From: an uncultured Lachnospiraceae bacterium
Lineage (GTDB): Bacteria; Bacillota; Clostridia; Lachnospirales; Lachnospiraceae
Direction: 5' to 3'
Assembly (NCBI GenBank): GCA_900317555.1
Contig: ONHF01000004.1
Coordinates: 1-64,000, forward strand
DNA length: 64,000 nucleotides
In this document: positions 6,823 to 22,425 of the stretch, one piece after another
How positions within the stretch are numbered: the stretch's first letter is position 1
Layout of the letters: every line of letters begins with the position of its first letter
The notes under the pieces: model-generated
Told to the model about the DNA's origin: nothing
Seen by the model: the letters and a program-made list of their open reading frames with translations, nothing else
Database searches by the model: none
Program-made: the position numbers and the translations under genes

Positions 6823-7064
6823 TTCGCACCTTCACAGTATATTTTATAAGACTTTTCATTGTGATTTGAACTGTTCCAGCCAGTTATCAATCTTTTTTGT
6901 ATTCATCATTAATCTGGAACTGTAATTTCTCTCGCTTCTATTTGCTTTGTTTATAAACAAATGTGATAAGTTTCGTACGCTGCCGTATCTGTATTATCTG
7001 AACCAGACTGTTACTACTGTCTATCTGATTATTTGTTGCCAAAGTGTTGCCAACAAACTTACAT

Positions 7065-7280
7065 TTATTCTTCTGGATCTTCCTCAACAGAAACAGATGC
7101 AGCTTTCATTTTATCAAGCAGTGTTTTCTCGGCTGCGCTTAATTCGCTCGTCATCCCGAACATAAAGTCCTTCATGACATTGAAACGAATCATTCGATTG
7201 GTATGCTTATTCAAGCCCTCAGAAGATGCAAGTTTATATCTTTTGAGCCAATCGTATAGTGTCTTTTCATTTTCATCCAC
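7065..7280 (-). CDS. Small hypothetical protein or remnant
   Basis: A GTG-started frame encodes 71 residues rich in Lys and Glu (DENEKTLYDWLKRYKLASS at the start, VEEDPEE at the end). No family is recognised. The frame stays open for some codons upstream of the GTG, and it lies directly beyond the broken IS30 transposase in the same orientation, so it may be the tail of a truncated gene. No convincing ribosome site was seen. Confidence 0.3.
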   Translation of the reverse strand: MDENEKTLYDWLKRYKLASSEGLNKHTNRMIRFNVMKDFMFGMTSELSAAEKTLLDKMKAASVSVEEDPEE

Positions 7281-7364
7281 ATCCCCCGTTAGATCGATAT
7301 CATTACTGAAAACAGCATATGAGTCTTCTCAGACATTTCAAGCTCGGGATGAGCCTGGAGGATC

Positions 7365-7832
7365 TCATAGGGGGGACTGGCCCTGTTTGAGAAGGGGTTT
7401 TATCACCTCTGCTTTCCGGGCGGCTTCCGCTGCAGTCATATTTACCCCTGCGCGGGAGTCGGAAAGAGTTTCCCTGTACTCATGGTCTGCTTCCTGCGGA
7501 TCGTAGAAGTACTTATTGAAGCGGCAATGGGAATAATAGCTGCATCCGTTGCAGGCTCCCGGTGAGCGGTCCCTGCGTCCGCAGTGAAAGGGAAAATAGC
7601 CGGGGCAGTCGGATGTACAGCTGCGGCCGTACGGGCATTTCTTATACACTGCGCATTCCAATGGCAGTGGGCATTTATACCTCAGTGTCCTGTGCAGCCT
7701 TATTTCTTTTCCGACAGTGGATTTGTCCTTGCCAATGATAGAGGCAATAGCGGTCTTGGTGGAATTATTACGGATTCCTGCTTCAATAATCACCCTGTCC
7801 TGCAGTGTAAGATGGGACATTTCCTTGCCCAT
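7365..7832 (-). pseudogene. Truncated and frameshifted IS30-family transposase
   Basis: The 155-residue fragment begins MGKEMSHLTLQDRVIIEAGI, the usual helix-turn-helix start of IS30 transposases. The Cys-rich stretch found in Firmicutes members follows (CPYGRSC, then CGRRDRSPGACNGC). The frame closes just after KQGQSP at a run of six C. Reading one base differently continues with YEILQAHPELEMSEKT, which matches the family, so one extra C has broken the gene. The catalytic DDE domain is absent altogether. Both the frameshift and the deletion show that the element is dead. It sits in the scar between the flippase and the large membrane glycosyltransferase. Confidence 0.85.
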
Positions 7833-8013
7833 ATATGTCACCTGCCTTTTCACAGACAGGCACCGGATAACAATCATTGTAGGGCAAAAGTGAAAGAGTT
7901 AATGCAACATCTGAAGAAGTGGAATTCCGTGAAAGACTTACTTCCACATGACCTCCCACAGAGTGGAAGTTAACTTTTCACTTCAGACATGAAATCTCTC
8001 AAATATATAGGCT

Positions 8014-10434
8014 TTATTCGCAATACATACAAATACTATAATTATAGTGATTGTCATTAATGTAAGAATAGCTTAAAGGTGTAGCTGTCCCATCACTACT
8101 TCTGTACATATGAATTGTATATCCTAAATATCTAAATTCTATTTCACAAGTGTACCCCACTCCAACATTTACCCTAACCGGCTTGTCTGTTTCTACATAA
8201 TAATATCCGTCTTCTGCTTTCTTTAGCTTTTTTTCCACCTTATTAATAATTTTGTCTTTATCATCACGAAGCGTAATTTTAATCAGTTGTTGGTCTATTA
8301 ACCCATCTTCATCAGCGAACATTTTAAATACATATTTTCGAAATGAATTTTTACTAAAATGTAACAACTGAAAGATAAATGCATGCTTTGGATCAAAATC
8401 TCGTATTTCTTCTCCGTTTCCACCAGAGAAAGCTGTTCTATGCCATATAGAAATAAAATCATCCTCCCCTTCATTATTATCATATTGTCCCAGACACCGA
8501 TAGTTTTCTTTTACATATGAATCAAACCAATCTTGAATATCTCTCTGTCCACTACGGTTCCCGTTTCTGTACTGATTTTCATGGGCAACCCAGCGATTCT
8601 CATTTAAATTCGACCAAACAACCATTTCCGGCGGTTCGGATATTAGCTGCTCTACACTACTTCGTGCCTCGTCATCTGGACAAACATCAAAATATGGGAT
8701 TGCATTATAAATCGTCTTGCGTTCCGTTAAAACATTAAAAAGCATAACATTTGGAAACTGATACACAATGTCATTTGTGTCGGAATACTCTTCAATTGAA
8801 GACACTATCTTTTCGTATTTTTCTTCATCGCTTTTAGGTAAAAATATTCCTTTTAAGCCACTGATTGACGAAGCAACCATTGGATTGTCTTTATCATATA
8901 ATGGAGGTACACGCCACGAATGCCATTCATATGGGATAGTTATTTTTTCAACAAAACATAAGAATCCACAGATAAGACATAATAGTATTCCTCCCCATGT
9001 TTTTATCCTGTTATAACTTATTTTCACATTAAATAATTCTGCGACGAAAAAGGGGACAAAAACCACTGCATATAACTCCTCTAAAGGAGCAGACGTAAAG
9101 GATATGGCAAGATATATAAGCACTCCTGTGAAACCAATATAATAAGGGAAATTATAAGGTGTCCTTTTATCAATAAAAATTATTTTTGTATAACGAAGCC
9201 ATATAAAAATTTCCAAGTAGGCTATGATATAAATAACTCCTCTCCTAAGCTCAAACATGTCAAGTGTATGATATAAGAAGTTTCTTTCAGCAACTGTTAA
9301 TCTTGTTCCAAAGAATAATCCTCCCGTCAGTGTGATCCAGAAAAAAACAAAAAGAATTTTATCCTGATAGCGTAAAGCTATATGACTTTTTTTGATAAAA
9401 ACAACAAAAAATACAGATAATAATAAATAACCTATAAGAATTACACTTAACTCAGGGACGCTGTTGCTATTCAAAAAATTCCACAACGGGGTCGTATAAA
9501 TCGAATAATCTACTCCTAAAGCTATAGCTCCCAACGCGAAAAGTATGGCCCGTGTATAATTCGGATGATGTATTTCGTGAATAATGTAATAAAACGCCAA
9601 TATGAGAAATGCAATAGCCAGATAATTGGGGCGCCATGCATTGCGAAAAGTCGTAATTAAAAATCCATTGCCTACACCTTTTGCCTCCATTGCAGAGTTG
9701 ATGCAACGCAGGCACTCTCGAAATGCATGGTGATAAAGAAGATATATTATTCCTGGCATAATACCAATTATAAAGCCGCAAAGAGCAACAATAATATTAT
9801 TAACAAAATGGTATTGTCTATTATTCCAAAAACAAAGCACAGCAAAAAAGACAATCATGGCAGGAGTTGCAAGACCAATATTTTGTTTAGTCATTAACAG
9901 CATTCCACATAGTAATCCTGCAAATAGCATCCATATAGCCTGTGATTTCCTTACTGATATACTATCAACAGATTTGATCAGAAGATAAACAATGAAAACA
10001 AAAAGCAATGATACAAGAGGATTATAATCATATGTAAGATCCATAGAATAAACCGAATTAAGCGCCATACCAGCAAAGACACTTATTGCGGAATATAAAG
10101 GTTTGATCTTACGAAGAAGCAGGCTGTACATTAATATCCACATGGGCATTTTATTAATTAAAAGTCCATAGAGAGTATAAAATGCAATATTATTACGAAA
10201 TATTTTATATAGAAAACCGCAATAAAGGACATGATATGGTGGAAGGTATAAATAAAAATCCACATAGGGAATATCTCCTTTGACGATTCTCCACCCGTAA
10301 TATTGCCACCAACCCATTTGCGGCATTGCAATACAAAAAGCAAACAGGAGATAATATAAAGAACAAGTTAACAGTAAGAAGAACAGCATAATTTTCTGCT
10401 GTTGCCTCGTTGCTTCGTAAATTTGATTTTTCAT
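8014..10434 (-). CDS. Large polytopic membrane glycosyltransferase-like protein
   Basis: The 806-residue protein has roughly twelve to fourteen membrane segments over the first 510 residues and a soluble C-terminal domain of about 300 residues. The first periplasmic loop carries acidic and aromatic residues (GWWQYYGWRIVKGDIPYVDFYLY), which resembles GT-C enzymes such as the PMT/ArnT group that use polyprenyl-phosphate sugars. No specific family motif could be fixed, so a polymerase role is also possible. The ATG at 10432-10434 has CAGAGG upstream; an earlier in-frame ATG exists. The gene is visibly more AT-rich than even its neighbours and lies between two mobile-element remnants, suggesting separate acquisition. 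Confidence 0.75.
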   Translation of the reverse strand: MKNQIYEATRQQQKIMLFFLLLTCSLYYLLFAFCIAMPQMGWWQYYGWRIVKGDIPYVDFYLYLPPYHVLYCGFLYKIFRNNIAFYTLYGLLINKMPMWILMYSLLLRKIKPLYSAISVFAGMALNSVYSMDLTYDYNPLVSLLFVFIVYLLIKSVDSISVRKSQAIWMLFAGLLCGMLLMTKQNIGLATPAMIVFFAVLCFWNNRQYHFVNNIIVALCGFIIGIMPGIIYLLYHHAFRECLRCINSAMEAKGVGNGFLITTFRNAWRPNYLAIAFLILAFYYIIHEIHHPNYTRAILFALGAIALGVDYSIYTTPLWNFLNSNSVPELSVILIGYLLLSVFFVVFIKKSHIALRYQDKILFVFFWITLTGGLFFGTRLTVAERNFLYHTLDMFELRRGVIYIIAYLEIFIWLRYTKIIFIDKRTPYNFPYYIGFTGVLIYLAISFTSAPLEELYAVVFVPFFVAELFNVKISYNRIKTWGGILLCLICGFLCFVEKITIPYEWHSWRVPPLYDKDNPMVASSISGLKGIFLPKSDEEKYEKIVSSIEEYSDTNDIVYQFPNVMLFNVLTERKTIYNAIPYFDVCPDDEARSSVEQLISEPPEMVVWSNLNENRWVAHENQYRNGNRSGQRDIQDWFDSYVKENYRCLGQYDNNEGEDDFISIWHRTAFSGGNGEEIRDFDPKHAFIFQLLHFSKNSFRKYVFKMFADEDGLIDQQLIKITLRDDKDKIINKVEKKLKKAEDGYYYVETDKPVRVNVGVGYTCEIEFRYLGYTIHMYRSSDGTATPLSYSYINDNHYNYSICMYCE

Positions 10435-10712
10435 GTCAGCCTCTGTTCTTATAAGCATTTTGATTAATTACTCAGATTCTCCACACTTTACATTATCTAA
10501 AACTCAATCATTTAGGTTTTTACCAATATATTGTCAGATTCATTATAAATCCGTTACCGTGATCTTCGGTTCAAAACCAAGCTGTCTCAGCATCTGGAGT
10601 TCCCGTTATCAATTGCGGTCCCGCTATTCCATTCTCATACATCTTGCCATCAGCAGGATGTCATGAACAGAAATGACATTGTTGTCGAGTTTCTTTACTG
10701 CGGCAATCTTTT

Positions 10713-11049
10713 TTGATGGATCTGCCCGGTGATAACCTTCCGATAAGCTGCTATCCTCATATGGTAAGAAGAACAAGAGCTACAAATATGTATCAGGATG
10801 GCACCGAACTTGAACTTATTTCCAGGATCCTCGGACACTCATCAACAGAAACGACCAGAATCTATGCCGTCCCATCAATAGATATGACGCGGGGCAGTGA
10901 TGGAAAATGGAAATCTTGCATCTCATGAAAAGCAGGCTTGGCCTGACGATGAAACCGAAATGGCACGATTGTGTGGATTGAGGTATAAATGTTATCCTCA
11001 TCTTTTTGAGATACATTCCATGAAAATGAGCGTTATAGAGAAAAGATGA
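10713..11049 (+). pseudogene. C-terminal remnant of a tyrosine recombinase (integrase), frameshifted
   Basis: The plus-strand frame gives CYPHMVRRTRATNMYQDG, then ISRILGHSSTETTRIYAVPS. This is the end of the catalytic domain of XerC-like integrases, with the R of the HxxR box, the LGHSS box and the catalytic Tyr of TRIYA. After IDMTR the frame is lost near 10890 at a run of four G. Another frame continues AVMENGNLASHEKQAWPDD and ends ...EMARLCGLR, a C-terminus I associate with Clostridial integrases. The N-terminal and core-binding domains are absent. It is the only gene remnant facing right in the locus and marks a past integration or excision. Confidence 0.85.
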
Positions 11050-11161
11050 GGATAAAAAATTCTGAGCATAAGTCGGCTGCGATCACGATCATCCGGACGT
11101 TATACGCTTCACTCAGCATGGCGGATCTCCTCCATGATCCGGTGAAGAAGTTTCTTTGAGA

Positions 11162-11198
11162 GTAACTGTTCAGAACCCCTGGGGTTCTGAACAGTTAC
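11162..11198. repeat. Perfect 18-bp-arm palindrome
   Basis: The arm GTAACTGTTCAGAACCCC is followed by one T and its exact reverse complement. A further near-complete copy, GGGTTCTGAACAGTTAC, lies at 11335-11351 inside the 3' end of the neighbouring GT2 gene, in the orientation of the right arm. The arms lack a flanking T-run, so a simple terminator is unlikely. A MITE or insertion-sequence end is the better guess. Confidence 0.7.
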
Positions 11199-11320
11199 GA
11201 TGCCTTTTCAATTTTTATCTTTCTCGGGCATTCTCCCCTAAAAATCATTACCTCTTTCGAAAAATCCGATGCTATCCTGCTTCTCTTAACTAACTGACAT
11301 TGCCCGTGAACTGTAACAAA

Positions 11321-12283
11321 CTATGAACAGCTTGAGGGTTCTGAACAGTTACAAAAATTTATTCTTTCTTCTTCAATCACCAACGGTCTATTCATCACCC
11401 GCTTATTTATGCTCATTACATACTCGCCCAATAAACCAATGAAAAACAACTGCAGTGAGCCGAAAAAGAAAATGCCAATCACCGCAGGAGCTATTCCAAG
11501 CGGAAATGCTTCCCAATGTGTCAGTTTCATGACAAAATAAACAATTGCTATAACCAAAGAAATAAGAGCAACCATAAATCCACCAATCGTTGCTACCCGT
11601 AACCCTGTCTTTGTATATGAGGTAAAACTCAGCATGGCTGCATCATATAAAGTGGCCCAGTTATTATGAGTCTTCCCCGCCTTTCTCTTTTGCTGTTCAT
11701 ACGGAATATCTTTCCTTTTAAATCCAAGCTCCGCAACGATTCCACGCAAAAAAGGTGTTGGATCATGAAGATTTCGCAATACATCAATAAATGCTTTGTC
11801 ATAAAGCCCAAACCCAGTAAATTGCTCAATCTGTTCTATGTCTGACATTTTCTTGATCAATTTATAGTATATCGTTCTGAGGAATCTCATGAACGGATTT
11901 TCTTTACTAGTTGTTTTTATTGCTGATACGATCTTATAGCCTTGTTCCCATTCATGCACCAGCTTCGGAATCATTTCTACCGGGTCTTGGAAATCACAGC
12001 ACATGCTGATCGTGCAGTCTCCAGTGGTTTGGCACATCCCATAATATGGAGAATTAAACTGTCCGAAATTTTTCGCGTTTAAAATTGCTTTTACTTTTTT
12101 ATTGTTAGCGCAGATAGCCCTAAGATATTCTCTGGTATGATCCTGCGAATCATTATCAATAAAGACTATTTCATAATCATATTGGGGCAGTTTATCCTTA
12201 ATAATTTTCTCTACTGCCTGAGACATAGGTATCACATTATCTTCTTCATTATAACAAGGGATAAGGACACTGATTTTTTTCAC
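11321..12283 (-). CDS. Membrane-anchored glycosyltransferase family 2 (DPM1/GtrB-like)
   Basis: The 320-residue protein has a GT-A domain with ISVLIPCYNEEDNV at the start, FIDNDSQDHT, and the DxD region as CCDFQDP near residue 98. Two C-terminal membrane segments follow (GGFMVALISLVIAIVYFVMK and GIFFFGSLQLFFIGLLGEYV). This architecture is typical of enzymes that transfer a sugar from a nucleotide to polyprenyl phosphate, such as GtrB or ArnC, and the product could feed a GT-C enzyme such as the one at 8014-10434. The last eleven residues differ from the usual family end because a repeat copy lies across the 3' end. A 12-base gap separates it from the epimerase gene. Confidence 0.92.
   Translation of the reverse strand: MKKISVLIPCYNEEDNVIPMSQAVEKIIKDKLPQYDYEIVFIDNDSQDHTREYLRAICANNKKVKAILNAKNFGQFNSPYYGMCQTTGDCTISMCCDFQDPVEMIPKLVHEWEQGYKIVSAIKTTSKENPFMRFLRTIYYKLIKKMSDIEQIEQFTGFGLYDKAFIDVLRNLHDPTPFLRGIVAELGFKRKDIPYEQQKRKAGKTHNNWATLYDAAMLSFTSYTKTGLRVATIGGFMVALISLVIAIVYFVMKLTHWEAFPLGIAPAVIGIFFFGSLQLFFIGLLGEYVMSINKRVMNRPLVIEEERINFCNCSEPSSCS
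11335..11351. repeat. Third copy of the palindrome arm inside a coding end
   Basis: This copy matches 17 of the 18 bases of the right arm at 11181-11198. It overlaps the last codons of the GT2 gene and supplies the unusual ending CNCSEPSSCS. The 155 bases between it and the palindrome may belong to the same small mobile unit. Confidence 0.65.
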
Positions 12284-12295
12284 TTTTTTTCTTCC

Positions 12296-13198
12296 TCAAT
12301 AGTTCTCCAATACGGACTGCTTAAACAGCACTTCTGGTTTCCAGCCTGTATCTTTCATGATTTTTCTGACTGATGGCTGTAGCGAAACAAAGGGGACCGG
12401 ATCACTGCCATAATGAATATTAGCTTCATCAATATGATAAATTCTACAGATTTCGGATGTAAAATCCTTCAATCTTCTATAATTTCCATTCGCAACATTA
12501 TATATTTCTCCGTTCCTCCCCCGCTCACCAATGGCAAGAAAAGCAGCTCCGCAATCTGCCGCATCAAGATAATCCCAATATTGCTGACAAGAGGACAACG
12601 TCGCTTTCTCACCATTTTTCAACCTCTTAATCAGATCCGGAAGCATTCTGCCTGACGGTTCATATTTTCCGATCAGACTGAATATTCGCCCCCAAACCCA
12701 TTCAACGCCTAATTGACTCGCCAGATTTTTGGTGAGATAGCATGCTGAAAGTTTGGCAGCGCCGTAAGAAGAAAACGGTGTTGGAAAATCGTCTTCTCGA
12801 ATTACATCTGGCTTTACTCCATACTCAGCCTGCGATCCTGTTCCAACAAATCGCGCTACGTTTAATCTGGCTGCAGTATTAAGAACTTCGATACTCTGAT
12901 CAATATTTTTCTTCTGCTCAAAGAAATTGTCGCGCCCGCCTGTCCATGCCATGTGAAAAAGCAGATCAGCGCCATTAGCCTCCGGAACCATGTCTGGCAG
13001 CTGATTGATTTCGCTCATATCCAGCTCGATCACTTCGAGATTCTGACCCGAGTACTTTGTCAGTCTTTCATTATGTTGAGATCCCGGTCGGCAAATTGCA
13101 AATACATAATAACCTTGATGAACCAGGCACTCCGTTAAATTTACTCCTGCAAATCCTGCTGCACCAGTTACAATGGCTCTTTTATTGTATTTCATCAA
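12296..13198 (-). CDS. NAD(P)-dependent sugar epimerase/dehydratase
   Basis: This 300-residue extended short-chain dehydrogenase has the dinucleotide loop GAAGFAGVNL at the N-terminus, HMAWTGG and a GTGSQAEYG strand. The catalytic YxxxK is SSYGAAKLSA, near residue 155. C-terminal features such as YWDYLDAADCGAAF and YNVANGNYR bind the sugar nucleotide. It probably reduces or epimerises a CDP-keto-sugar made by the RfbH and TPP enzymes, a role like YerF in yersiniose synthesis, but this is an inference from position. The start overlaps the end of the HAD gene by 17 bases, implying translational coupling. A start one codon downstream is equally possible. Confidence 0.88.
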   Translation of the reverse strand: MMKYNKRAIVTGAAGFAGVNLTECLVHQGYYVFAICRPGSQHNERLTKYSGQNLEVIELDMSEINQLPDMVPEANGADLLFHMAWTGGRDNFFEQKKNIDQSIEVLNTAARLNVARFVGTGSQAEYGVKPDVIREDDFPTPFSSYGAAKLSACYLTKNLASQLGVEWVWGRIFSLIGKYEPSGRMLPDLIKRLKNGEKATLSSCQQYWDYLDAADCGAAFLAIGERGRNGEIYNVANGNYRRLKDFTSEICRIYHIDEANIHYGSDPVPFVSLQPSVRKIMKDTGWKPEVLFKQSVLENY

Positions 13199-13835
13199 TC
13201 AGCCTCAATACGTCCAGTGGAGATGATGCCACTCCAATATGTGGATAATCGTCGCAGTCATTCGTGCTCTTGAAACCAAAACCATATGTCACAGCAATAA
13301 ACGGTATTTGAGCTTCGTGAGCCCCCTTTGCATCATGAATTGTATCCCCTATCAAGACACTATTCTCTTTTGTCCCTCTCATTTCAGTCTGACACATAAG
13401 AACAATATCCTCTTTTTTTAGCTTATTCTTATGGTCTGCACCATGCATAGGATTGCAATAGGTGTCAAAATGGAAGTGCCTCAGTAGCGTAAGTGCATAA
13501 TCTTCGCGTTTATAAGTTGCTACTGCCATACAAATACCTTCTTTTTGGAGGCCCTCGCACAACTCATAAATTCCGTCATAAGGTTTCGCTAGCAGAAGCG
13601 CCTTATTCTTATAATAGTCACGAAAAATTTCGGCAGCTTTCTGTGCGTTTACCATGTCGCATCCATAATGACTGGCAAACGAATTCTGTATAGGTGGTCC
13701 AATAAATGTCAGTAATTCATCATGGGGCAATTCTGGGTATTTTAGTGTTCTGATAGTATATTTTACGCTCTCAAGCACTCCCTCTGTTGTATCCAGCAAA
13801 GTGCCATCCAAATCGAAAATGACATTTTTTATCTT
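13182..13835 (-). CDS. HAD-superfamily phosphatase
   Basis: The 217-residue protein has the HAD nucleophile motif DLDGTLLD at residues 8-15, a helical cap of the phosphoglycolate-phosphatase type with GPPIQNSFASHYG, motif II as VATYKRE, and motif IV as IGDTIHDAKGA. It should dephosphorylate a small sugar phosphate or phospho-intermediate in the cytoplasm. Within this cluster it may act on a precursor of the unusual sugar, but no substrate can be read from sequence. The ATG at 13833-13835 is chosen because the domain begins there; the ribosome site is weak. It lies 13 bases beyond the end of the TPP enzyme gene and overlaps the epimerase start. Confidence 0.88.
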   Translation of the reverse strand, partial: KIKNVIFDLDGTLLDTTEGVLESVKYTIRTLKYPELPHDELLTFIGPPIQNSFASHYGCDMVNAQKAAEIFRDYYKNKALLLAKPYDGIYELCEGLQKEGICMAVATYKREDYALTLLRHFHFDTYCNPMHGADHKNKLKKEDIVLMCQTEMRGTKENSVLIGDTIHDAKGAHEAQIPFIAVTYGFGFKSTNDCDDYPHIGVASSPLDVLRLIDEIQ

Positions 13836-13848
13836 CATACAGCACCAT

Positions 13849-15642
13849 CTAATAATGAATCTTGTCAAATTCATTCCGACTGAGAAAAGGTTTCATATCA
13901 TCCAGCGAAGGAGATACAATTCGTCCATCCGGTAATACTTTCGATGATGATTTTGGTTCAAAGTTCTGTTTCGGATCGACTATAACCTCGCATACGCATG
14001 GACCATCACAGTTCAATACATTCTCCAGTTCTTCGTCTGCCCGATTTTCCTTCTCAATTTGATAATACGCTAATCCAAATGAATCCGCTAATTTATGAAA
14101 ATCCGGGAAACAGATCCCACTGGTATTATCAATTCCTATATAAGGAGGTTCGAACAAATTTGACTGCGTCTGACGAATCGAAAGATACCCATTGTTATTC
14201 AGGATCAGCAGCTTAATATTCAGTTTATTATAAGCCACTGTAGCAAGTTCCTGAATATTCATCATCACACTGCCATCGCCATCTATGCATATTGTGCGTT
14301 TTCTGTTGTCTGCCACCGCTACACCTACCGCGGCTGGAAAACCATATCCCATTGCTGCACAGCCAGAATTCGTAAACATCCTCTGCCCTTGCTTTATTTT
14401 GGCTGCTTGAAACGTGACAACACAGGCGGCACCATTGCCACAAACAATACGGTCATCGGGCTTCAAATGGTAAAAAAGTTTATCGATAAATGTATAGGGA
14501 TTAATCTGAGTTGCTCTATATTCATATTCAGGTTTTGCTGCAGGATATCTGATCAACAAATCTCTGCACCAGCTTAACCATTTCTTGTGCTTTTCTTCCA
14601 CCTGATAATCTGCGCCAAGCATCTTATTTAAAAATTCTTTCACGTCTGCATGAATAGGCAGATCCGCATGGATGGTTGGCTTCATGAGTTCCCTGGGGTC
14701 TATATCGACAATTACTTTATATGCATTTTTTGCAAAATCAAAATGTGAATATCCTATCATGCGAATATTTAGACGACACCCAAGACTAATTAATAAATCA
14801 CAATTCTGTACTGCAAAATTTCCGGAACGAATTCCCACTGTCCCCGGCATTCCGACAAAATACGGGTTATCATACGCGACCGTATCATTGGCATTCCACG
14901 CCGTTACAACGGGAACCTGATATTTTTCCAAGAACTGCAGCAATTCACTATCCGCATTCGCAATATCAATACCGGTCCCCGCTAAAATAAGTGGAGCCTT
15001 GGCCTCATGCAGCTTCTTCAGTACCAGCTCAATAGCAGAATCCTTCGTCAAGGGTGCCGGCCAGGGATCCTCTTTGCTTGAATTAAAATGTATTAAATCA
15101 TCCGTATTAATCTTCGCGCCTTGAACATCCAAAGGTATATCCAACCACACCGGACCTTTTCGTCCATGTGTTGCCAGATACAACGCCTTTTCGAGATGGT
15201 ACGCTATCTCTATTGGATTTGTAACCATTTGTGCATACTTGGTCATATTCTTCACAGAATCAATAATATTAAATTCCTGATCTCCAAGTTGCCGTAAATT
15301 AAGATCACTGCATGCCCAAATGGTAGTTTCTCTCTTTACCTGTCCAGAGATCACGAGCATTGGAATAGAGTCTAACCAGCCCCCAATTACTCCGGTAATG
15401 GCATTTGTCCCACCCGGCCCACTTGTCACACATACCGCTGCAATTTTATGTGTCATTCGGGCATACCCTTCAGCAGCAATTGCACAAGCCTGCTCATGAT
15501 GATTAAATGTGCAGTGCATCCCTTTCTGATGTCCAATTGCATCATCCAAGTGCATTGCACCACCCCCCGTTACCATAAAGGTGTCAGTGATCCCATGGTC
15601 AATCAGAAATTGAGAAATATACTTGGCAACTTTTATTTCCAT
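13849..15642 (-). CDS. TPP-dependent acetolactate-synthase-like enzyme (YerE-type candidate)
   Basis: The 597-residue protein has the three-domain layout of TPP enzymes. The N-terminal pyrimidine domain contains TFMVTGGGAMHL and the conserved Glu in FNHHEQACAIAAEGYAR. The central domain has APLILAGTGID. The C-terminal pyrophosphate domain carries GDGS (CIDGDGSVMMN) and the metal-binding NNNGYLS. Acetolactate synthases use pyruvate as an acyl-anion donor. In CDP-3,6-dideoxyhexose loci the homologue YerE adds a two-carbon branch to the keto group. Clustering with rfbF, rfbG and rfbH supports a YerE-like role, but a different keto acceptor is possible. GGAGAAG lies just upstream of the ATG at 15640-15642. 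A second member of the family at 39092-40741 is the likely housekeeping enzyme. Confidence 0.85.
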   Translation of the reverse strand: MEIKVAKYISQFLIDHGITDTFMVTGGGAMHLDDAIGHQKGMHCTFNHHEQACAIAAEGYARMTHKIAAVCVTSGPGGTNAITGVIGGWLDSIPMLVISGQVKRETTIWACSDLNLRQLGDQEFNIIDSVKNMTKYAQMVTNPIEIAYHLEKALYLATHGRKGPVWLDIPLDVQGAKINTDDLIHFNSSKEDPWPAPLTKDSAIELVLKKLHEAKAPLILAGTGIDIANADSELLQFLEKYQVPVVTAWNANDTVAYDNPYFVGMPGTVGIRSGNFAVQNCDLLISLGCRLNIRMIGYSHFDFAKNAYKVIVDIDPRELMKPTIHADLPIHADVKEFLNKMLGADYQVEEKHKKWLSWCRDLLIRYPAAKPEYEYRATQINPYTFIDKLFYHLKPDDRIVCGNGAACVVTFQAAKIKQGQRMFTNSGCAAMGYGFPAAVGVAVADNRKRTICIDGDGSVMMNIQELATVAYNKLNIKLLILNNNGYLSIRQTQSNLFEPPYIGIDNTSGICFPDFHKLADSFGLAYYQIEKENRADEELENVLNCDGPCVCEVIVDPKQNFEPKSSSKVLPDGRIVSPSLDDMKPFLSRNEFDKIHY

Positions 15643-15754
15643 AATGATCTTCTCCAATTCCCGCGAAAAATATAAATGATATTGTACAATGTCGTACATT
15701 CGTAGAGCAGCTCATGCATAGAATAAGCCAGCCATATCTGGCAGGCTTATGTAA

Positions 15755-17113
15755 TTACATCCTTACTGCATCTGTGATGATTTCAGCCATATAATCAATC
15801 TTTTCATCTGTCATTCCCGGATAAACTCCCACCCAGAAAGTATTATTCATAATACGATTTGTGTTGTCCAGTCCTCCAGATACCCTGTAAGCATCTGTTC
15901 CACGTATTGGATTAAAGCACGGATGTTTGATAAGATTACCCGAAAAAAGCAGTCTTGTCTGAATATTCTTTTCTTCAATATAGTGAGTTACCTGGTTTCT
16001 AGATACCCCTGCATTCTCTTTAACAGTAATTAGAAAACCGAACCAGGATGGCCGACTGTTGGCAACAGGTTCAGGAAGAATAATTTTGTCATCAACCGGT
16101 TCCAATGCCTTATGCAGTCGATCCCAGTTATAGCGTCTCCTTTCAATAAATGAAGGGAATTTTTTTAATTGTTCAATTCCGATTGCTGCCTGCAAATCTG
16201 TCACCTTCAGATTGTATCCCAGATGGCTGTATACATATTTGTGATCATAACCATGAGGTAGTTCTCCATAATCCCCATCAAACCGATGACCACAGGTATT
16301 ATCTTGACCAGAAGGGCAGAAGCAATCCCGCCCCCAATCTCGATAAGAAAGGATAAGACGATGAAGTAGAGGATGATTAGTATACACACACCCTCCCTCT
16401 CCCATTGTCATATGATGGGGTGGGTAAAAACTCGATGTTCCTATATCTCCCCATGCTCCTGTATATCGCTTTTCTCCATTAATGGTATATTCTGATCCTA
16501 ACGCATCACAATTATCTTCAACCAACCACAGATTATGCTTTATACAAAATTCCCTTACTATCTTGATATCAAATGGATTTCCCAGAGTATGGGCTATCAT
16601 AACTGCTTTGGTCTTAGGACTAAGGGCCTTCTCAAGCTTTGAAACATCGATATTATATTGCGGAATCGTCACATCTACAAAAACCGGTACCGCGCCATAC
16701 TGTAGCATGGGGGCAACTGTAGTAGGAAATCCGCAGGCCACTGTGATAACTTCATCCCCTCGTTTAATCTGTCTTTCTCCAAGTTCTGGTGCTGTCAATA
16801 CACTGAACGCAATCAAGTTTGCCGAAGAACCAGAATTCACCAAGTGTGCATACTTTACTCCGATCCATTTGGCAAATTGTTTCTCAAATTGATCGGCAAA
16901 CCTTCCCGTTGTAAGCCAAAAATCCAGCATTGCATCCGTTAGACTTTGCATTTCTTTTTCATCATACATACGGGAAGCATACGAAATTCTGTCCCCGGGT
17001 TGAAACACTTTCTCGATCATTGGCTTTTTAAATTGGCGGTAATACTCCCCAACTAATTCTTTAATCTCAGATCGTGCTTCTGCCTCATCTGTCCAATGAT
17101 GGTTATTATTCAT
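15755..17113 (-). CDS. rfbH: CDP-4-keto-6-deoxy-D-glucose 3-dehydrase (E1)
   Basis: This 452-residue PMP- and iron-sulfur-dependent dehydrase removes the 3-OH of CDP-4-keto-6-deoxyglucose. The fold is that of DegT/DnrJ aminotransferases, but the position of the PLP lysine is taken by His in SFYPPHHMTMGEGG, the hallmark of E1 (ColD shares the same replacement). The cysteine set for the [2Fe-2S] cluster is seen in CFCPSGQDNTCGHRF, as in AscC. HTLGNPFDI and GIEQLKKFPSFIERR are also family-like. The start overlaps the aldolase stop by four bases. E1 needs an electron-transfer reductase (AscD/RfbI), and none is visible in the window. Confidence 0.94.
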   Translation of the reverse strand: MNNNHHWTDEAEARSEIKELVGEYYRQFKKPMIEKVFQPGDRISYASRMYDEKEMQSLTDAMLDFWLTTGRFADQFEKQFAKWIGVKYAHLVNSGSSANLIAFSVLTAPELGERQIKRGDEVITVACGFPTTVAPMLQYGAVPVFVDVTIPQYNIDVSKLEKALSPKTKAVMIAHTLGNPFDIKIVREFCIKHNLWLVEDNCDALGSEYTINGEKRYTGAWGDIGTSSFYPPHHMTMGEGGCVYTNHPLLHRLILSYRDWGRDCFCPSGQDNTCGHRFDGDYGELPHGYDHKYVYSHLGYNLKVTDLQAAIGIEQLKKFPSFIERRRYNWDRLHKALEPVDDKIILPEPVANSRPSWFGFLITVKENAGVSRNQVTHYIEEKNIQTRLLFSGNLIKHPCFNPIRGTDAYRVSGGLDNTNRIMNNTFWVGVYPGMTDEKIDYMAEIITDAVRM

Positions 17114-18738
17114 CTTTCGATATTTCCTCCCTCATATAATGACGGCGTGACAAAGTTTATTTCCAAATCTATTGTATGGTCACTGATAAATTTTCTGGCA
17201 TCCGAGTTAAATGCGTCAGCCATCTTTTTTACAAAGCTATACTCCATGTTTTCTTGTACGTAATTCACGTCATTTGGAGTATACCCGTCAAAACCTGCTA
17301 ACGCCACATGGCAAATACCAATTCTAAGGAAAAGGCGAAGCAGCATCAGAAGTGAATTATCCGGACATTCCTTATTGGATTCGTCAATCAGATGGCTATA
17401 GTTCAGGACATAATCAAAACCAGCTGTTCTCTCTTCCATTCTGGTTACATTTGATGTGGCAATGATCCTCAAATTCTTGTTCTGCTGCTCATAGAGCCTT
17501 GTAGCCATCATCAGATAACGGGAGGAATGGGAAACAAACACATAATCCGGTTTGCATATGTGCGGAATAAAATTAATAGAAATAACTACCGGATGATTAT
17601 TTTTGATATAAGTATCAATGTTCTCCTGCTTATCCCGAATGGTTTTCCCGGGACCCAGAACCAGGATCGGTTTTCCTGTCAGTTCTGTCTTCAGGCCGGA
17701 AACCGCCACCGAATCATCACACTCCCGCTTCTGATAATCAAGGTATATTTGTTCCAGAAGTTTCATGTTTTTTCCAAGCTTATCTTTCTCAGGAATTCTG
17801 GAGAGAATTTCATTTATTTCTGTCACGGAAAGCGTCCCCTTGTTCATCAGATATGATACATAATTCGGATGAACATGCTTCTCCGCCGCTATATAGAAGA
17901 AAAGCTTGTAGCCCCACGATTTCTTACGATATATGTCCATGAGACTTGTCGTGATCGCTTCCTGCATATCAGTGATACAGTAATGCTTTCCGTAGTGCTC
18001 ATTCATATACATAGCAATAAGCTCAGATGGAGCATTTCCTGCGCTCTTTCCCATGCCATATAAAGTTCCATCCACCAGGATATCGCGCTTCAGCCCACTG
18101 TTCAGCGCAGTCATTGCATTAGCAAAGGCTAGCTGAAAATTATTATGCGCATGAAAACCAAGAATGATATCAGATGCCAGGAAAGAATCAATCACGTGAA
18201 TGATGTGAGTTAACTGCTCCGGATCCAGAAGCCCATACGTATCGACCATCGACAGGGCATAGGGATGCACATCATTCACTGTTTCGATCAATTCCTTAAA
18301 ATCTTCATCACTGTATGTTGTTACAGATACCAACTGCGCAAATACCTTGTACCCCTTTGCTTTAACCTGTCGGCAAAATTCCAACGCCTCTCTGGCAACA
18401 GGCTGCTTGAAAATCACCCTAATCCCATCCAGCCAAGAATCACTGCACTCCTGAAGATGGTCGATGCTGCACGTACCATAATCAATCATGCCTACAACCA
18501 TCGCATTGCCGCGATCCAGCCTTCCAAATATCTTCTCTGCATCTGCAGTACAAGGCATTATCGTCCGATTAATATCAAATGGACGGCGATCATCAAGAAA
18601 ACCGATTTCAATGGCATCAACGCCGGAGCTCACCAGTCTTTCAAAAACATTAGTGATGTTGTCCCGTCCAAATTCCCAGTCGTTGACATATCCTCCGTCA
18701 CGCAAAGTACAGTCCAACAAATAGCGCTTACCCGACAT
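17110..18738 (-). CDS. Two-domain HMGL-like aldolase with C-terminal Rossmann-like domain
   Basis: The N-terminal part of this 542-residue protein (about residues 1-290) is a TIM-barrel of the HMG-CoA-lyase/4-hydroxy-2-oxovalerate-aldolase group. It shows LLDCTLRDGGYVNDW with the metal-binding Asp, SMVDTYGLL, and LGFHAHNNFQLA, whose two His are metal ligands. The C-terminal part from about residue 350 begins GKPILVLGPGKTIRD and looks like a Rossmann-type domain related to DUF115/MptE-like proteins. The enzyme probably makes or breaks a carbon-carbon bond using a 2-keto acid. Position directly before rfbH suggests a role in making or branching the CDP-sugar. The start at 18736-18738 has GGGAGG at good spacing; ATGs two and ten codons earlier are possible. 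Confidence 0.85.
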   Translation of the reverse strand: MSGKRYLLDCTLRDGGYVNDWEFGRDNITNVFERLVSSGVDAIEIGFLDDRRPFDINRTIMPCTADAEKIFGRLDRGNAMVVGMIDYGTCSIDHLQECSDSWLDGIRVIFKQPVAREALEFCRQVKAKGYKVFAQLVSVTTYSDEDFKELIETVNDVHPYALSMVDTYGLLDPEQLTHIIHVIDSFLASDIILGFHAHNNFQLAFANAMTALNSGLKRDILVDGTLYGMGKSAGNAPSELIAMYMNEHYGKHYCITDMQEAITTSLMDIYRKKSWGYKLFFYIAAEKHVHPNYVSYLMNKGTLSVTEINEILSRIPEKDKLGKNMKLLEQIYLDYQKRECDDSVAVSGLKTELTGKPILVLGPGKTIRDKQENIDTYIKNNHPVVISINFIPHICKPDYVFVSHSSRYLMMATRLYEQQNKNLRIIATSNVTRMEERTAGFDYVLNYSHLIDESNKECPDNSLLMLLRLFLRIGICHVALAGFDGYTPNDVNYVQENMEYSFVKKMADAFNSDARKFISDHTIDLEINFVTPSLYEGGNIER

Positions 18739-18912
18739 TTCCATGTTCCTCCCGTTAAAACCGACCAAAACAGCTTATTCACAATTCAAAAGCCATACCG
18801 TTCCAGGTTTTCAACATATACAACTCTCCCTTGACGGCTGTGATTACTGCAGATTTCTCATTTAGATTCACAGTATGGTCATTATTGAATAACTTAGCCA
18901 CGCTGCGCATGA

Positions 18913-19695
18913 TCAATAATCCCATTTGATCCATGGTGCTTTGTGAAGGCGTATTCTTTTCTCGAGAAGCTCCCTTTCCCGCAAATTATCCATACACTGC
19001 CAAAAACCCCTGTGTTGATAGGACATAAGCTCTCCCTCCTCTGCAAGCTTTTGAAGGGGTTCTTGCTCCAGGACAGTATTATCTCCTCCCAGATAGTCAA
19101 AAATCTGAGGCTCAAACACCATGTAGCCGGCATTAATCGGTACCTGATCGGTGATATTCTTTTCACGGAATGCTTTAACGGTGTTGTCCTCGCCAATGTC
19201 CAGCACCCCTTTGCTCTGATCCTGCAGAACTGCTGTCAATGTCGCAATTCTGCCATGCTCCTGGTGGAATCTCACAGTATCTGCAATATTTACATCGCAG
19301 ACCGCATCGCCATATGTAAGCAGAAAAGTCTCATTCCCAATGTATTTCTGCACTCTCTTCAGACGTCCGCCAGTCATAGTATCAAGACCAGTATCAACGA
19401 TAGTCACCTTCCAGGGCTCCACATGAGCCTCATGGACCGTCACTTCATTCTTTCCATGTGTATAATCGAAGGTCACATCGCTGACTCTACGGAAATAATC
19501 GCCGAACCAGTCCTTAATAAATTGCTGCTTATAACCCGCACATATGACAAATTCATTAAACCCATACCAGGAATACTCTTTCATGATGTGCCACATAATC
19601 GGCATTCCCCCAATATCAATCATCGGTTTTGGTCTGGAATTTGATTCTTCTGATATGCGGGTTCCTCTGCCTCCCGCCAGAATAACAACCTTCAT
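18913..19695 (-). CDS. rfbF: Glucose-1-phosphate cytidylyltransferase
   Basis: The 260-residue nucleotidyltransferase makes CDP-glucose from CTP and glucose-1-phosphate, the first committed step to CDP-dideoxyhexoses. VILAGGRGTRISEESNSRPKPM is the signature loop of sugar-phosphate nucleotidyltransferases, and the RfbF-type form has EESN before RPKPM. MWHIMKEYSWYGFNEFVIC, the GDAVCDVNI metal site and INAGYMVFEPQIFDYL agree. AGGAGAGG lies just upstream of the ATG. The gene heads the rfbF-aldolase-rfbH-TPP-HAD-epimerase-GT2 run. A gap of about 170 bases without a clear gene separates it from the aldolase. Confidence 0.95.
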   Translation of the reverse strand: MKVVILAGGRGTRISEESNSRPKPMIDIGGMPIMWHIMKEYSWYGFNEFVICAGYKQQFIKDWFGDYFRRVSDVTFDYTHGKNEVTVHEAHVEPWKVTIVDTGLDTMTGGRLKRVQKYIGNETFLLTYGDAVCDVNIADTVRFHQEHGRIATLTAVLQDQSKGVLDIGEDNTVKAFREKNITDQVPINAGYMVFEPQIFDYLGGDNTVLEQEPLQKLAEEGELMSYQHRGFWQCMDNLRERELLEKRIRLHKAPWIKWDY

Positions 19696-19897: not shown

Positions 19898-22327
19898 TCA
19901 AATGTTCTCCTTTGTACAAAAAGTCTTACAGCTTATTAGCTTTACAAAAATTTCATCCCGAATGATATGCATTTCAAAGGCATATATTGTAAAGAATGCT
20001 CCCACTGTAATAATCAGGCGAAGTATTACGTAAGGAATAGGCAATAACGTAAGGAGTGCCGTCAGAAAAGCAGCGATCGCCGTGGCAAAGATATACCTCT
20101 TATACTTAACTCGTTTTAACGCTTTCCCCACCACATCCCTTCCTAGCAGCAATTGGGCCAGCAATACAATATATTCTGCGCAGGTCGTTGCCAGGGCCGC
20201 GCCTGATGCTCCCCATATCGGAATCATAAAGAGATTCAGAATTAAGTCAGACAACGCTCCACACAAAACTGAAACCAGCACCTGATTTTCCCGATCAAGT
20301 GATGTTAATGCCTGAACTCCTATCACCCCAGTGAGTCCAATTGGAACAACCGCCAGATTGATTATCTGCATCGTAAGTGTCGCTCTCAGATATTCCTGCC
20401 CGGCTAAAAATAACAAAGTATCTTTTGCTTCAATTCCGAAATATGCTGTCAACGGAAGAGCCATGAATAACTCAACGTTTAGTGCCAGCACCAGTAATTG
20501 ATAAAATTCACCCTTTTTCTTTCTTTCCACAAAAAAAGACATTCTGGGAAGCAGTACGCTCCCGAGAGAATTAACAACAGCTACCAATATACCTTTTACT
20601 TTTACCGCTGCTGTATAAAGCCCTACATCCGTATCTGTTTTCATGAATCCCAGCATGACAGTGTCAAGGTTTGTATAAATACTGACAGCTGCAGATTGTG
20701 CAAATAAAACAAAAATCGGCTTAAGATGTCTTTTGAAATGATATCGGCCTGTCTTATGAAAACTAATGTATTCCCGTAGGCGGAAAAAATTTAAAATATT
20801 GGAGCCTGCCGAGGCAATTACCGTCGTAGCGGCATATACCCTGTAATCCGATTCCTGATGAACCATCATGAAAATAAGAAAGACTGATACAGTCTTAAAT
20901 AGTACAGACCTTGCTGTGATGTAATCATATTGCTCCAATGCTTGATAAAGCCAGTTGGCTCCCAACATATTAAGAACAATATTAATTCCCTCTATAAAAA
21001 AAAGCGTCTTAATCGTCGCTAAACAGATCCTGAAATCCTCGGCGAGGCTCGGTTTTGCGATATACATAAGGTCCATCAGAAGCTTGTCATAAGGCGTGCT
21101 GTTGTATTTGCCGTAGACCTGCGCGAGGCCGGTCAGACCGCACTTGCACTGCAGACGCAGATCGAACTCCGGCAGCTCCTTCCGGTACTGCGCCGCGATC
21201 TCCGGACGTTCCGGCCTTGGCCCGACAATGGACATGTCGCCTTTCAGGATGTTGATGAGCTGCGGCAGCTCATCCATTCTGCATGCGCGGATAAAGTGGC
21301 CGACCTTCGTGATCCGGTCGTCATTTTCTCCGGTCGAAAGTCTGGCAACGCCGTCTTTTTCCGCGTCCATGCGCATGGAGCGGAATTTCAGAACTTCAAA
21401 CTTCTTTCCGTCCTTTGTAAGTCTCGTCTGTCTGTAGAACGCCGTGCCGCCGTCAGAGCGGATGATCAGCGCAAGGACAATCATCAGCGGACTGAGAATG
21501 ATGAGTGCGGCTGCGGAAAGCACAATGTCAAAAAGGCGCTTGAAAAAGAGATACTCGGGGACCGGGCTGTAGCGCCGTACCAGCAGCATCGGCAGGTGCA
21601 TCAGGTTCATTTCCTCGGCGCTGCTCATAATCATGTCCCCGATTCTGGGAATTACGTAGGAATTAACATCGTGCAGCACGCAGAATTTAAGGATCTGGTT
21701 CCGTTCATGGCTGTGCAGACTGCAAAGGAATACGAAATCAGCCTTTGCGACCTCCTGCTCCATAAACTCCTGTGTCAGTTCGCGGACATGCACTGTTTTC
21801 CGCACATCGTAGCGGACATTCAACCCGTGCTCCTGAATCAGTCTTTCCAGCCCTTCCATCTCGTCATAGATGATGATGGTTTTCTTCCGCGCAAAACATC
21901 TGCTATGCCAGGTATGCGCAAGCGTCGTCCATAAGATGATCACGGCAAGATCCAATATTAGACACAGCAGCATCGGCAGCAGCGCCGGAAGTTTTCTGAT
22001 TAAAAGGTAGAGTACGATGTAGATCAGCGCATTGGCGAGCACCGCGGCCAGAAATTGGGAATAGATTAATTCAGAGATACGGCTAAGATGCAGAAGAAAT
22101 CCCCGGTAGACTCTGGTCAGATAGAAATACAGCACAGCATAGAGCAGGATAACCGCCCAGTTGCCCCAATAGTAAAAGGGCACGCCGTATACATGGTTTT
22201 GATAGAATTTTGTCCAGATAAACGCAAAAACAGCCGCGACCGCCACCACATCAAGCAGTTTGACAAAACGGATCAGCACGCGGTGTTCCACATACTGTCC
22301 GGACGAAGTTACAGTTTCATTTCGCAT
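19898..22327 (-). CDS. Chimeric protein: polyprenyl glycosylphosphotransferase fused to N-terminally truncated flippase
   Basis: Up to about residue 440 this 809-residue protein is a complete WbaP/CpsE-type initiating transferase. It has membrane segments, a central Rossmann-like part, a further membrane segment, and the catalytic domain with FKRLFDIVLSAAAL, KFRSM, RMDELPQLINILKGDMSIVGPRPE and GLTGLAQVYGKYN. Without a stop it continues as a flippase, beginning within what is normally about residue 110 of the family (NMLGANWLYQALEQYDY), and gives some ten more membrane segments to the end. The junction lies at a run of eight T in the coding strand (plus-strand 20996-21003). GC content drops there. 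The ATG at 22325-22327 is preferred because an upstream ATG at 22394-22396 falls inside a leader hairpin; neither has a good ribosome site. Confidence 0.85.
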   Translation of the reverse strand: MRNETVTSSGQYVEHRVLIRFVKLLDVVAVAAVFAFIWTKFYQNHVYGVPFYYWGNWAVILLYAVLYFYLTRVYRGFLLHLSRISELIYSQFLAAVLANALIYIVLYLLIRKLPALLPMLLCLILDLAVIILWTTLAHTWHSRCFARKKTIIIYDEMEGLERLIQEHGLNVRYDVRKTVHVRELTQEFMEQEVAKADFVFLCSLHSHERNQILKFCVLHDVNSYVIPRIGDMIMSSAEEMNLMHLPMLLVRRYSPVPEYLFFKRLFDIVLSAAALIILSPLMIVLALIIRSDGGTAFYRQTRLTKDGKKFEVLKFRSMRMDAEKDGVARLSTGENDDRITKVGHFIRACRMDELPQLINILKGDMSIVGPRPERPEIAAQYRKELPEFDLRLQCKCGLTGLAQVYGKYNSTPYDKLLMDLMYIAKPSLAEDFRICLATIKTLFFIEGINIVLNMLGANWLYQALEQYDYITARSVLFKTVSVFLIFMMVHQESDYRVYAATTVIASAGSNILNFFRLREYISFHKTGRYHFKRHLKPIFVLFAQSAAVSIYTNLDTVMLGFMKTDTDVGLYTAAVKVKGILVAVVNSLGSVLLPRMSFFVERKKKGEFYQLLVLALNVELFMALPLTAYFGIEAKDTLLFLAGQEYLRATLTMQIINLAVVPIGLTGVIGVQALTSLDRENQVLVSVLCGALSDLILNLFMIPIWGASGAALATTCAEYIVLLAQLLLGRDVVGKALKRVKYKRYIFATAIAAFLTALLTLLPIPYVILRLIITVGAFFTIYAFEMHIIRDEIFVKLISCKTFCTKENI

Positions 22328-22348
22328 AGCGGAATTATTAACGGAAAA

Positions 22349-22425
22349 AGAGCCTCTTCCCCGCTCTCTTTTCCCTCTGCAGGAGTTCACCTGCATCGAG
22401 GAAATTCAAACAGGGAAAAGGCTCT
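22349..22425 (-). promoter_or_regulatory. Attenuator-like leader with alternative hairpins
   Basis: On the minus strand an upstream element AGAGCCTTTTCCCTG can pair with CGGGGAAGAGGCTCT. That stem is followed at once by TTTTT, as in an intrinsic terminator. The same upstream element contains TTTTCCCT, which alternatively pairs with AGGGAAAA (22369-22376) and would prevent the terminator. A small hairpin GCAGG-loop-CCTGC (22379-22394) lies between. The arrangement fits regulated read-through into the polysaccharide operon. Confidence 0.5.

Follow-up and report, generated by a model that had tools for sequence, protein, structure and literature searches.

Gene content of the locus

The stretch of DNA analyzed here (64,000 nucleotides, positions 1 to 64,000 of contig ONHF01000004.1 of assembly GCA_900317555.1, from an uncultured Lachnospiraceae bacterium; hereafter "the window") carries at 11321-19695 of its minus strand seven consecutive genes which seem to constitute an operon for an unusual branched sugar activated with cytidine diphosphate (CDP). 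In the order of transcription they encode RfbF, a two-domain aldolase, RfbH, a thiamine pyrophosphate (TPP) enzyme, a haloacid dehalogenase (HAD) phosphatase, a short-chain dehydrogenase/reductase (SDR) and a family 2 glycosyltransferase (GT2), three adjacent gene pairs, that of RfbH and the aldolase included, overlapping when the open reading frames (ORFs) are called from the first start codon. The gene of RfbG lies on the same strand some 6 kb beyond the operon, separated from it by genes for an 814-residue membrane protein and a flippase and by an insertion sequence (IS) fragment.

18913-19695, minus strand: RfbF, glucose-1-phosphate cytidylyltransferase (TIGR02623, 337.8 bits, cutoff 300.25)
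17110-18768, minus strand: two-domain aldolase (PF00682 on residues 16-258; matches to 3dxi, 1nvm and 8ih7)
15755-17113, minus strand: RfbH, CDP-6-deoxy-4-hexulose-3-dehydrase, or E1 (NF011936, 706 bits, cutoff 423)
13849-15699, minus strand: TPP carboligase, apparently YerE-like (all three TPP domains; closest solved chain 8rph)
13182-13874, minus strand: HAD phosphatase, phosphoglycolate-phosphatase-like (PF13419; 3mc1, 118.6 bits)
12296-13198, minus strand: extended SDR, NAD-dependent epimerase/reductase (PF01370)
11321-12283, minus strand: GT2 of the PgfS/ArnC type (NF047588, 186 bits, cutoff 500; PRK10714, 122 bits, cutoff 529; both below cutoff)
4219-5457, minus strand: RfbG, CDP-glucose 4,6-dehydratase (TIGR02622, 407 bits, cutoff 278.45)

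All three of RfbF, RfbG and RfbH are present and exceed the curated cutoffs of their families, as expected from an earlier reading of this DNA (hereafter "the original prediction"), which had assigned the synthesis of CDP-4-keto-3,6-dideoxyglucose to them. RfbH matches the E1 structures 3bcx and 3bb8 with 511 and 507 bits, and its alignment to 3bcx bears out both of the residue features that had been pointed out: the histidine of the SFYPxHH motif, presumably the replacement of the pyridoxal phosphate lysine, is at the same site as in E1, and cysteines are found at all four sites matching C193, C251, C253 and C261 of E1, which we take to be the cluster ligands. The other gene families named in the original prediction were likewise matched in the profile scans, with two corrections of extent, as the ORF of RfbG spans 4219-5457 rather than 4219-5400 and the epimerase/reductase, confirmed as such, is situated mostly outside the interval 13182-19695 to which the pathway had been confined. 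The best solved match of the latter is 2pk3, a GDP-6-deoxy-D-lyxo-4-hexulose reductase (77.8 bits).

The TPP enzyme

When the TPP enzyme was compared with solved chains using phmmer, 8rph scored 394 bits and the next chain, an acetolactate synthase, 243, while a profile built from 21 TPP relatives (A3) gave 556 bits for 8rph vs. 348 for the next chain; among the 24 chains listed, 8rph alone aligns to profile position 595 of 597. This chain is JanthE, a YerE-like carboligase (PMC12188165), and it is the one sequence by which the YerE-like class is represented in the structure comparison. In the bacterium's own genome the window enzyme scores 1084 bits and two other genes score 327 and 317. The catalytic Glu69 (HEQ) and the cofactor-binding GDG/NN motif are invariant in 21/21 aligned TPP enzymes, most of the homologues beginning at residue 20 of the window protein (about 15642).

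An acetolactate synthase for branched-chain amino acid synthesis was considered and rejected: the protein stays under the TIGR00118 (acetolactate synthase) cutoff of 538.35 with 366.7 bits, the two own-genome paralogues exceed that cutoff (713 and 587 bits), and the window enzyme is much closer to JanthE. By these comparisons, the enzyme appears to be closer to a YerE-like carboligase than to an acetolactate synthase, in agreement with the kinship to YerE originally proposed. Across 295 genomes of the order, in a scan that scored at most four candidates per genome, 41 matches reached at least 409 bits (that of the own genome included) and a second body began at 369 bits and continued downwards, among the matches listed. 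Searched against plasmids, the TPP protein returned 15 records, 12 of them annotated as acetolactate synthase and 3 having no annotation under the match.

The two-domain aldolase

The aldolase does consist of two parts, as had been suggested, with PF00682 at its N-terminus and a C-terminal part of about 250 residues. Residues ~16-305 form a DmpG-like metal aldolase of the DRE-TIM type, whereas the C-terminal domain (~306-552) falls in no class; the true start is likely the ATG near 18744. Its nearest solved chains are 3dxi, an unnamed aldolase, and the 4-hydroxy-2-oxovalerate aldolases 1nvm and 8ih7, 4-hydroxy-2-oxovalerate aldolase being the closest characterized relative, so the label "HMGL-like" used in the original prediction stands at the superfamily level and DmpG-like is the better one. 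In an alignment of 75 sequences, the window protein included, the metal-ligand pair His206 and His208 is found in 75/75 and Arg23 with Asp24 in 74/75, the remaining row being cut there. Isopropylmalate, citramalate and homocitrate synthases were rejected as candidates, as their profiles score under those of 4-hydroxy-2-oxovalerate aldolase and the nearest structures differ.

No Pfam family was matched by the C-terminal ~250 residues in the window protein, and none recurred there in more than 2 of the 32 proteins scanned. The domain bears a faint similarity to SteA/MptE-like proteins (9hmz, E 0.037; 8sd5, E 0.76), a fold class that, we presume, includes nucleotide-sugar enzymes, and hhalign comparisons with 10 MptE-like domains (PF01973) were collinear and weak (E 0.0013 for one pair, probability 18%), the control comparison with A3 giving a probability of 2% and E 0.022. 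For the suspicion of a GT42/sialyltransferase-like domain, the search with PF06002 matched nowhere, its controls being silent as well.

Conservation of the gene neighbourhood

The gene neighbourhoods were approached from both sides. On the aldolase side, the best 80 of 582 confirmed relatives on genome contigs were all examined, neighbouring genes being located by tblastn with the window proteins. A TPP gene was found in 67/80 of these loci, on the strand of the aldolase in 66/67, the exception being L076, where the two are on opposite strands. The two genes are within 250 bp of each other in 34 of the 67, a HAD gene and less than 1 kb separate them in 25 (L076 among them), a HAD gene and an ORF of ~940 residues in 2 (L131, L132), and other genes in 6. 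Within this subfamily, the TPP gene is thus an almost constant neighbour of the aldolase gene. When families were called from the DNA of the 80 loci, TPP was recovered in 59, SDR in 50, HAD in 45, RfbH in 38, GT2 in 36, RfbG in 32, RfbF in 31 and a GtrA-like protein in 17.

The TPP genes were usable in 63 of the 67 loci (the short pieces L069, L086 and L090, as well as L130 with its internal stop, were dropped), and RfbF, RfbG or RfbH lies within the stretch in 44/63. For the other 19, whole genomes contain RfbG above its curated cutoff in 17 and RfbH (63-73% identity) in 15, so that 61/63 loci have RfbF, RfbG or RfbH close by or, failing that, RfbG at another site of the genome; L117 and L126, where RfbG was missed, are metagenome assemblies. 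In 14 control genomes RfbG was matched in two, one of them above cutoff. The pair therefore does not occur mainly apart from rfbF/G/H; its doing so would, according to the original prediction, have spoken against the proposal. Assemblies that contain this gene set with the TPP enzyme belong to Bacillota, Fibrobacterota, Chloroflexota, Spirochaetota and Bacteroidota, and the titles of many point to gut and rumen samples; Lachnospiraceae bacterium AC2029 (L068) is a cultured carrier of a sister operon. As far as such sequence comparisons go, the grouping of the operon's genes is not a product of chance.

Seen from the TPP enzyme, the picture is a different one. The order-level scan provided 40 YerE-like places (at least 409 bits) besides the window, each covered for about 8-9 kb on either side or to the contig end, and RfbF, RfbG or RfbH is near the TPP gene in 30/40, whereas the aldolase is within 4 kb in 6/40, two of these six matches being weak (L169 and L172, 65 and 52 bits). 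This suggests that the carboligase is general to CDP-sugar clusters, with the aldolase as an additional module. The constant pairing of aldolase and TPP enzyme that had been anticipated thus holds within the subfamily (67/80 loci) and fails at large (6/40 from the TPP side, 4/23 from the aldolase side at the order level): within either family, it is one part that shows the pairing.

A tree of 106 TPP proteins, made by a quick method with the Shimodaira-Hasegawa-like approximate likelihood ratio test (SH-aLRT) as its only support and with several long branches flagged, agrees with this. The aldolase label changes 13 times on it vs. a shuffled mean of 31.9, a contrast that partly reflects how the loci were found, since 63 of the rows came from the aldolase search. 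The window enzyme falls within a clade of 24 rows (SH-aLRT 100) that spans Bacillota, Fibrobacterota and Chloroflexota and has the aldolase in every row; its 7 nearest members all have a HAD gene near the TPP gene, as does the window.

Several loci showed arrangements of their own. L094, L100 and L115 have two tandem RfbF-like genes (35-41% identity to the window RfbF for the first and 46-51% for the second), and L107 resembles them, its second copy being truncated where the stretch ends. In L145 (a Desulfobaculum bizertense plasmid, 8998-13166), RfbH, a split transketolase and a one-domain aldolase relative stand in a row, a different class of TPP enzyme being paired with an aldolase there, and L147 (Methylovirgula plasmid pHY1) has RfbF/G/H with a split transketolase.

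Two mutual exclusions around the aldolase

Altogether, 103 two-domain aldolase loci were available, 80 from the genome contigs and 23 from the order level, two of which (L035 and L142) look like the same contig counted twice. A TPP gene is near the aldolase in 71 of these, a KdsB-like (CMP-Kdo-synthetase-like) gene, i.e., one resembling the enzyme that activates 3-deoxy-D-manno-octulosonic acid (Kdo) with cytidine monophosphate (CMP), in 13, and both in 0 (Fisher p 3e-8, relatedness ignored). The TPP-less loci thus number 32, with the KdsB-like gene in 13 and neither gene in 19, some of which are on short contigs; the identity of the KdsB-like gene is based on NCBIfam for L136 and L148 and on tblastn for the remaining cases. 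As a free 2-keto-3-deoxy acid is what an enzyme of the KdsB type requires, these loci provide the best independent evidence for the product of the aldolase, and, with 13/32 of the TPP-less loci concerned, they lend separate support to the originally proposed local synthesis of the donor. The aldolase product may, by this comparison, have two fates, the loci with a KdsB-like gene possibly representing a route to CMP-ulosonates via a pyruvate aldolase.

A two-domain aldolase with a KdsB-like cytidylyltransferase, mostly together with a HAD protein, was seen in L148, L084 (Robinsoniella peoriensis, a cultured carrier), L136, L137, L138 and L144. In L148 (Leisingera caerulea plasmid, 7007-10009; a remoter case lying outside the 103), the annotated aldolase, CMP-Kdo synthetase and HAD genes lie side by side.

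The second exclusion concerns the HAD phosphatase. Among the 63 loci, 36 have a HAD match (at least 60 bits) and 8 an AroB-like protein (L071, L073, L075, L081, L087, L094, L119 and L129) no more than 4 kb from the TPP gene, and 0 have both (Fisher p 6e-4, relatedness ignored), a pattern that is understandable if the product of the aldolase is phosphorylated. Weaker HAD matches (39-58 bits) stand beside the aldolase-TPP pair in six loci (L097, L098, L103, L120, L122 and L127). The AroB-like protein of L073 (Clostridium thailandense), on which this assignment is based, matches TIGR04425 ("AroB-related putative sugar phosphate phospholyase (cyclizing)") with 437.6 bits vs. a cutoff of 400; Glu, His and His of the AroB metal site, which we take to be AroB's metal ligands, are present in 7/7 of the members called as ORFs, and a FabG-like reductase is near 7/8 of the AroB-like proteins.

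Proposed pathway and its alternatives

Taking together the gene content, the families, the intact active-site residues of the aldolase and the TPP enzyme, the linkage, the clade structure and the two mutual exclusions, all of them read from sequence, we favour, with modest confidence, the interpretation that the operon encodes a pathway to a CDP-activated, C4-branched 3,6-dideoxyhexose with a long polyhydroxy branch. All of the reactions after RfbH, as well as the chain length, the stereochemistry and the transfer to undecaprenyl phosphate, are predictions from homology and gene context. RfbF, RfbG and RfbH would, by homology, produce CDP-4-keto-3,6-dideoxyglucose; the aldolase would condense pyruvate with a phosphorylated aldehyde into the phosphate of a 2-keto-3-deoxy acid, from which the HAD protein would strip the phosphate; the TPP enzyme, going by its family, would decarboxylate the resulting acid and join the acyl unit to the C4 ketone, leaving a tertiary alcohol; the SDR, a candidate reductase of the new branch ketone, would act much like in the yersiniose proposal; and the GT2 protein would probably charge undecaprenyl phosphate with the sugar, for display at the surface. 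The end product would be a caryophyllose-like C11-C12 sugar.

As a ring closure of the AroB type needs a six-carbon side chain, we would guess at a C4 sugar phosphate (e.g., erythrose-4-phosphate) as the aldehyde and, failing that, at a C3 one; the free sugar expected is C12H24O9 for the former and C11H22O8 for the latter, caryophyllose being C12H24O8. The branch from a locally made donor, as originally suggested, is supported by the linkage within the subfamily, with the amendment that pyruvate probably serves as the donor not directly but in the form of its dephosphorylated aldol product. An assay with pyruvate alone may consequently fail, given that ErwE does not use pyruvate (PMC12247030).

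Several observations weigh against this interpretation. RfbG is outside the transcription unit of the operon. The position of the TLRDGxH histidine, presumably the catalytic His of DmpG, is occupied by Tyr27 in the window aldolase (Tyr in 71/75 of the alignment, Phe in 3/75, one row being cut), and the protein reaches 80.6 bits with TIGR03217, the DmpG equivalog, below its cutoff of 286, for which two reasons it is filed as DmpG-like and not as DmpG. The aldolase alignment offered no convincing residues separating HAD-linked from HAD-free aldolases, and in 13/63 loci neither a HAD match or motif nor a cyclase was found up to 4 kb from the TPP gene, so the removal of phosphate is not common to the whole family. 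At the order level, 19/23 two-domain aldolases have no TPP gene within reach, and the stretches of L140 (aldolase, HAD, RfbG, RfbH) and L144 (aldolase, HAD, RfbF, RfbG) have none either; the whole genomes hold a best match of 303.6 bits (L140) or none (L144) for a YerE-like TPP enzyme, under the scores seen here. L140 is a Methanomassiliicoccaceae archaeon assembly.

The first of the alternatives is a yersiniose-type arrangement, in which the TPP enzyme would add a two-carbon branch from pyruvate, while the aldolase and the HAD protein would serve a separate acidic sugar of the same glycan. YerE itself takes pyruvate (PMC12247030), the aldolase is not within 4 kb in 34/40 of the order-level YerE-like loci, and related aldolases do adjoin a KdsB-like gene (13/103); yet KdsB-like and TPP genes never occur together beside the aldolase (0/103), the first 26 kb of the window yielded no KdsB match, and aldolase and TPP enzyme are near-constant neighbours in the subfamily, tracking together on the TPP tree, which makes us consider this arrangement unlikely.

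An erwiniose-like short hydroxylated branch, formed with acetaldehyde as the aldolase acceptor and 4-hydroxy-2-oxopentanoate as the donor, the HAD protein having an unrelated task, would suit the nearest characterized aldolase, as DmpG makes exactly this compound, as well as the use of such donors by ErwE (PMC12247030) and the 13/63 loci having neither HAD nor cyclase near the TPP gene. It fits poorly with all 7 nearest clade members, like the window, keeping the genes of the HAD protein and the TPP enzyme close together, and with the HAD/cyclase exclusion, which would be expected of two routes losing one phosphate, and we regard it as quite improbable. Least probable of all seems a direct aldol addition of pyruvate to the C4 ketone of the CDP-sugar, with the TPP enzyme then decarboxylating or elongating the 2-keto acid: aldolases accepting ketones exist (PMC7610986), the C-terminal domain faintly resembles the SteA/MptE fold class, and L140 and L144 combine the aldolase with CDP-sugar genes and no TPP gene, but such a route gives no role to the HAD phosphatase, whose gene lies next to those of aldolase and TPP enzyme or between them, and the same aldolase next to a KdsB-like gene with no TPP gene better fits a free 2-keto-3-deoxy acid.

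The preferred long-branch pathway can be extended into a broader scheme, which we consider tentative and on balance doubtful: a single aldolase, with its extra domain, would feed three kinds of surface sugar. With HAD and TPP partners, as in the window, a long open-chain branch would result; with HAD and KdsB-like partners, a CMP-activated ulosonic acid, a pyruvate aldolase then replacing a synthase using phosphoenolpyruvate (PEP); and where the AroB-related cyclizing phospholyase and the FabG-like reductase replace HAD, a carbocycle. The substrate of the cyclase would be the product of the TPP enzyme, whose side chain CO-CH2-CHOH-CHOH-CHOH-CH2-OP would mimic the dehydroquinate synthase substrate, the sugar standing in for the carboxylate, and a cyclohexane ring would form at C4 of the sugar.

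Genomic surroundings

11162-11198, no strand assigned: perfect inverted repeat of 17 bp (terminator scan), directly downstream of the GT2 gene

This repeat possibly marks the end of the operon, the total of the terminator scan being near chance (14 found vs. 10.9 expected). The G+C content is 34-47% in the first 24 kb of the window vs. 48-56% in the remainder, a contrast that fits horizontal gain. An 832-residue ORF (19898-22396, minus strand) combines a bacterial sugar transferase (PF02397) with a flippase match starting at model position 116/274, the N-terminal part of the flippase seemingly missing, and looks like an in-frame deletion fusion. A tyrosine recombinase fragment (PF00589; 10713-10928, plus strand) and a short transposase-type helix-turn-helix protein (PF13936; 7365-7877, minus strand) lie within the glycan cluster, and a DDE transposase at 23232-25097.

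Significance and comparison with known systems

Donors of long-branch sugars were previously known from in vitro substrate preferences, while the gene set described here names the enzymes and predicts glycan structures; what is added is a conserved gene set for the presumed synthesis of the donor and two alternative fates of its product. If true, the proposal would explain the origin of unusual side chains on some bacterial surface sugars and predict where CMP-ulosonates made by a pyruvate aldolase and carbocycle-bearing sugars are to be found, and the carboligase/aldolase pairs might be of use for tertiary alcohol synthesis.

Of the known systems, the yersiniose A pathway (YerE/YerF) shares RfbF/G/H, a TPP carboligase and an SDR reductase with the window, but it uses pyruvate as the donor, whereas the window has an aldolase gene between those of RfbF and RfbH; to our knowledge, the yersiniose A pathway has no aldolase or HAD step. 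The original remark that the aldolase step has no counterpart is thus right for yersiniose, whereas a conceptual counterpart can be seen in the erwiniose and caryophyllose pathways. DmpG resembles the window aldolase in its DRE-TIM fold, its metal-binding Asp and His-x-His and the pyruvate aldol chemistry to be expected; the window protein differs in its extra C-terminal domain, in the Tyr replacing the TLRDGxH histidine and in the operon having no aldehyde dehydrogenase. In the Kdo pathway (KdsA, the HAD protein KdsC, KdsB) the logic is the same as in some TPP-less relatives, which group an aldolase, a HAD protein and a KdsB-like enzyme, except that the pyruvate aldolase replaces the PEP-dependent KdsA, and that the initial 26 kb of the window showed no KdsB.

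The erwiniose pathway (ErwE, Pectobacterium atrosepticum) is like the proposal in its CDP-4-keto-3,6-dideoxyglucose acceptor and its 4-hydroxy-2-oxo acid donor, and unlike it in that the erwiniose branch is short. ErwE does not take pyruvate, and ErwE and MMAR_2332 favour hydroxylated 2-oxo acid donors, whereas YerE uses pyruvate (PMC12247030). Erwiniose and the R. palustris sugar are C4-branched sugars of natural glycans (PMC9912281). Caryophyllose is 3,6-dideoxy-4-C-[D-altro-1,3,4,5-tetrahydroxyhexyl]-D-xylo-hexopyranose (PMC5706390), a C12 sugar bearing a hydroxylated C6 chain on its C4 (PMC7821131), and its pathway (lipooligosaccharide of Mycobacterium marinum, MMAR_2332) has a YerE-like carboligase and a hydroxylated 2-oxo acid donor in common with the proposal, as well as a six-carbon branch at C4 of a 3,6-dideoxyhexose. 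The deoxy position at C2', also shared, is what a 2-keto-3-deoxy acid donor losing CO2 with subsequent ketone reduction would predict; unlike in the proposal, the branch ends in a methyl group, so there is no phosphate to remove. The word "aldolase" was not found in the main text of the M. marinum and M. kansasii papers searched, and the idea of the donor being an aldol product lies near the surface of the published work. The locus is, in our best reading of its sequence, probably a caryophyllose/erwiniose-like pathway with a donor module attached, donors of this kind having already been published for ErwE and MMAR_2332.

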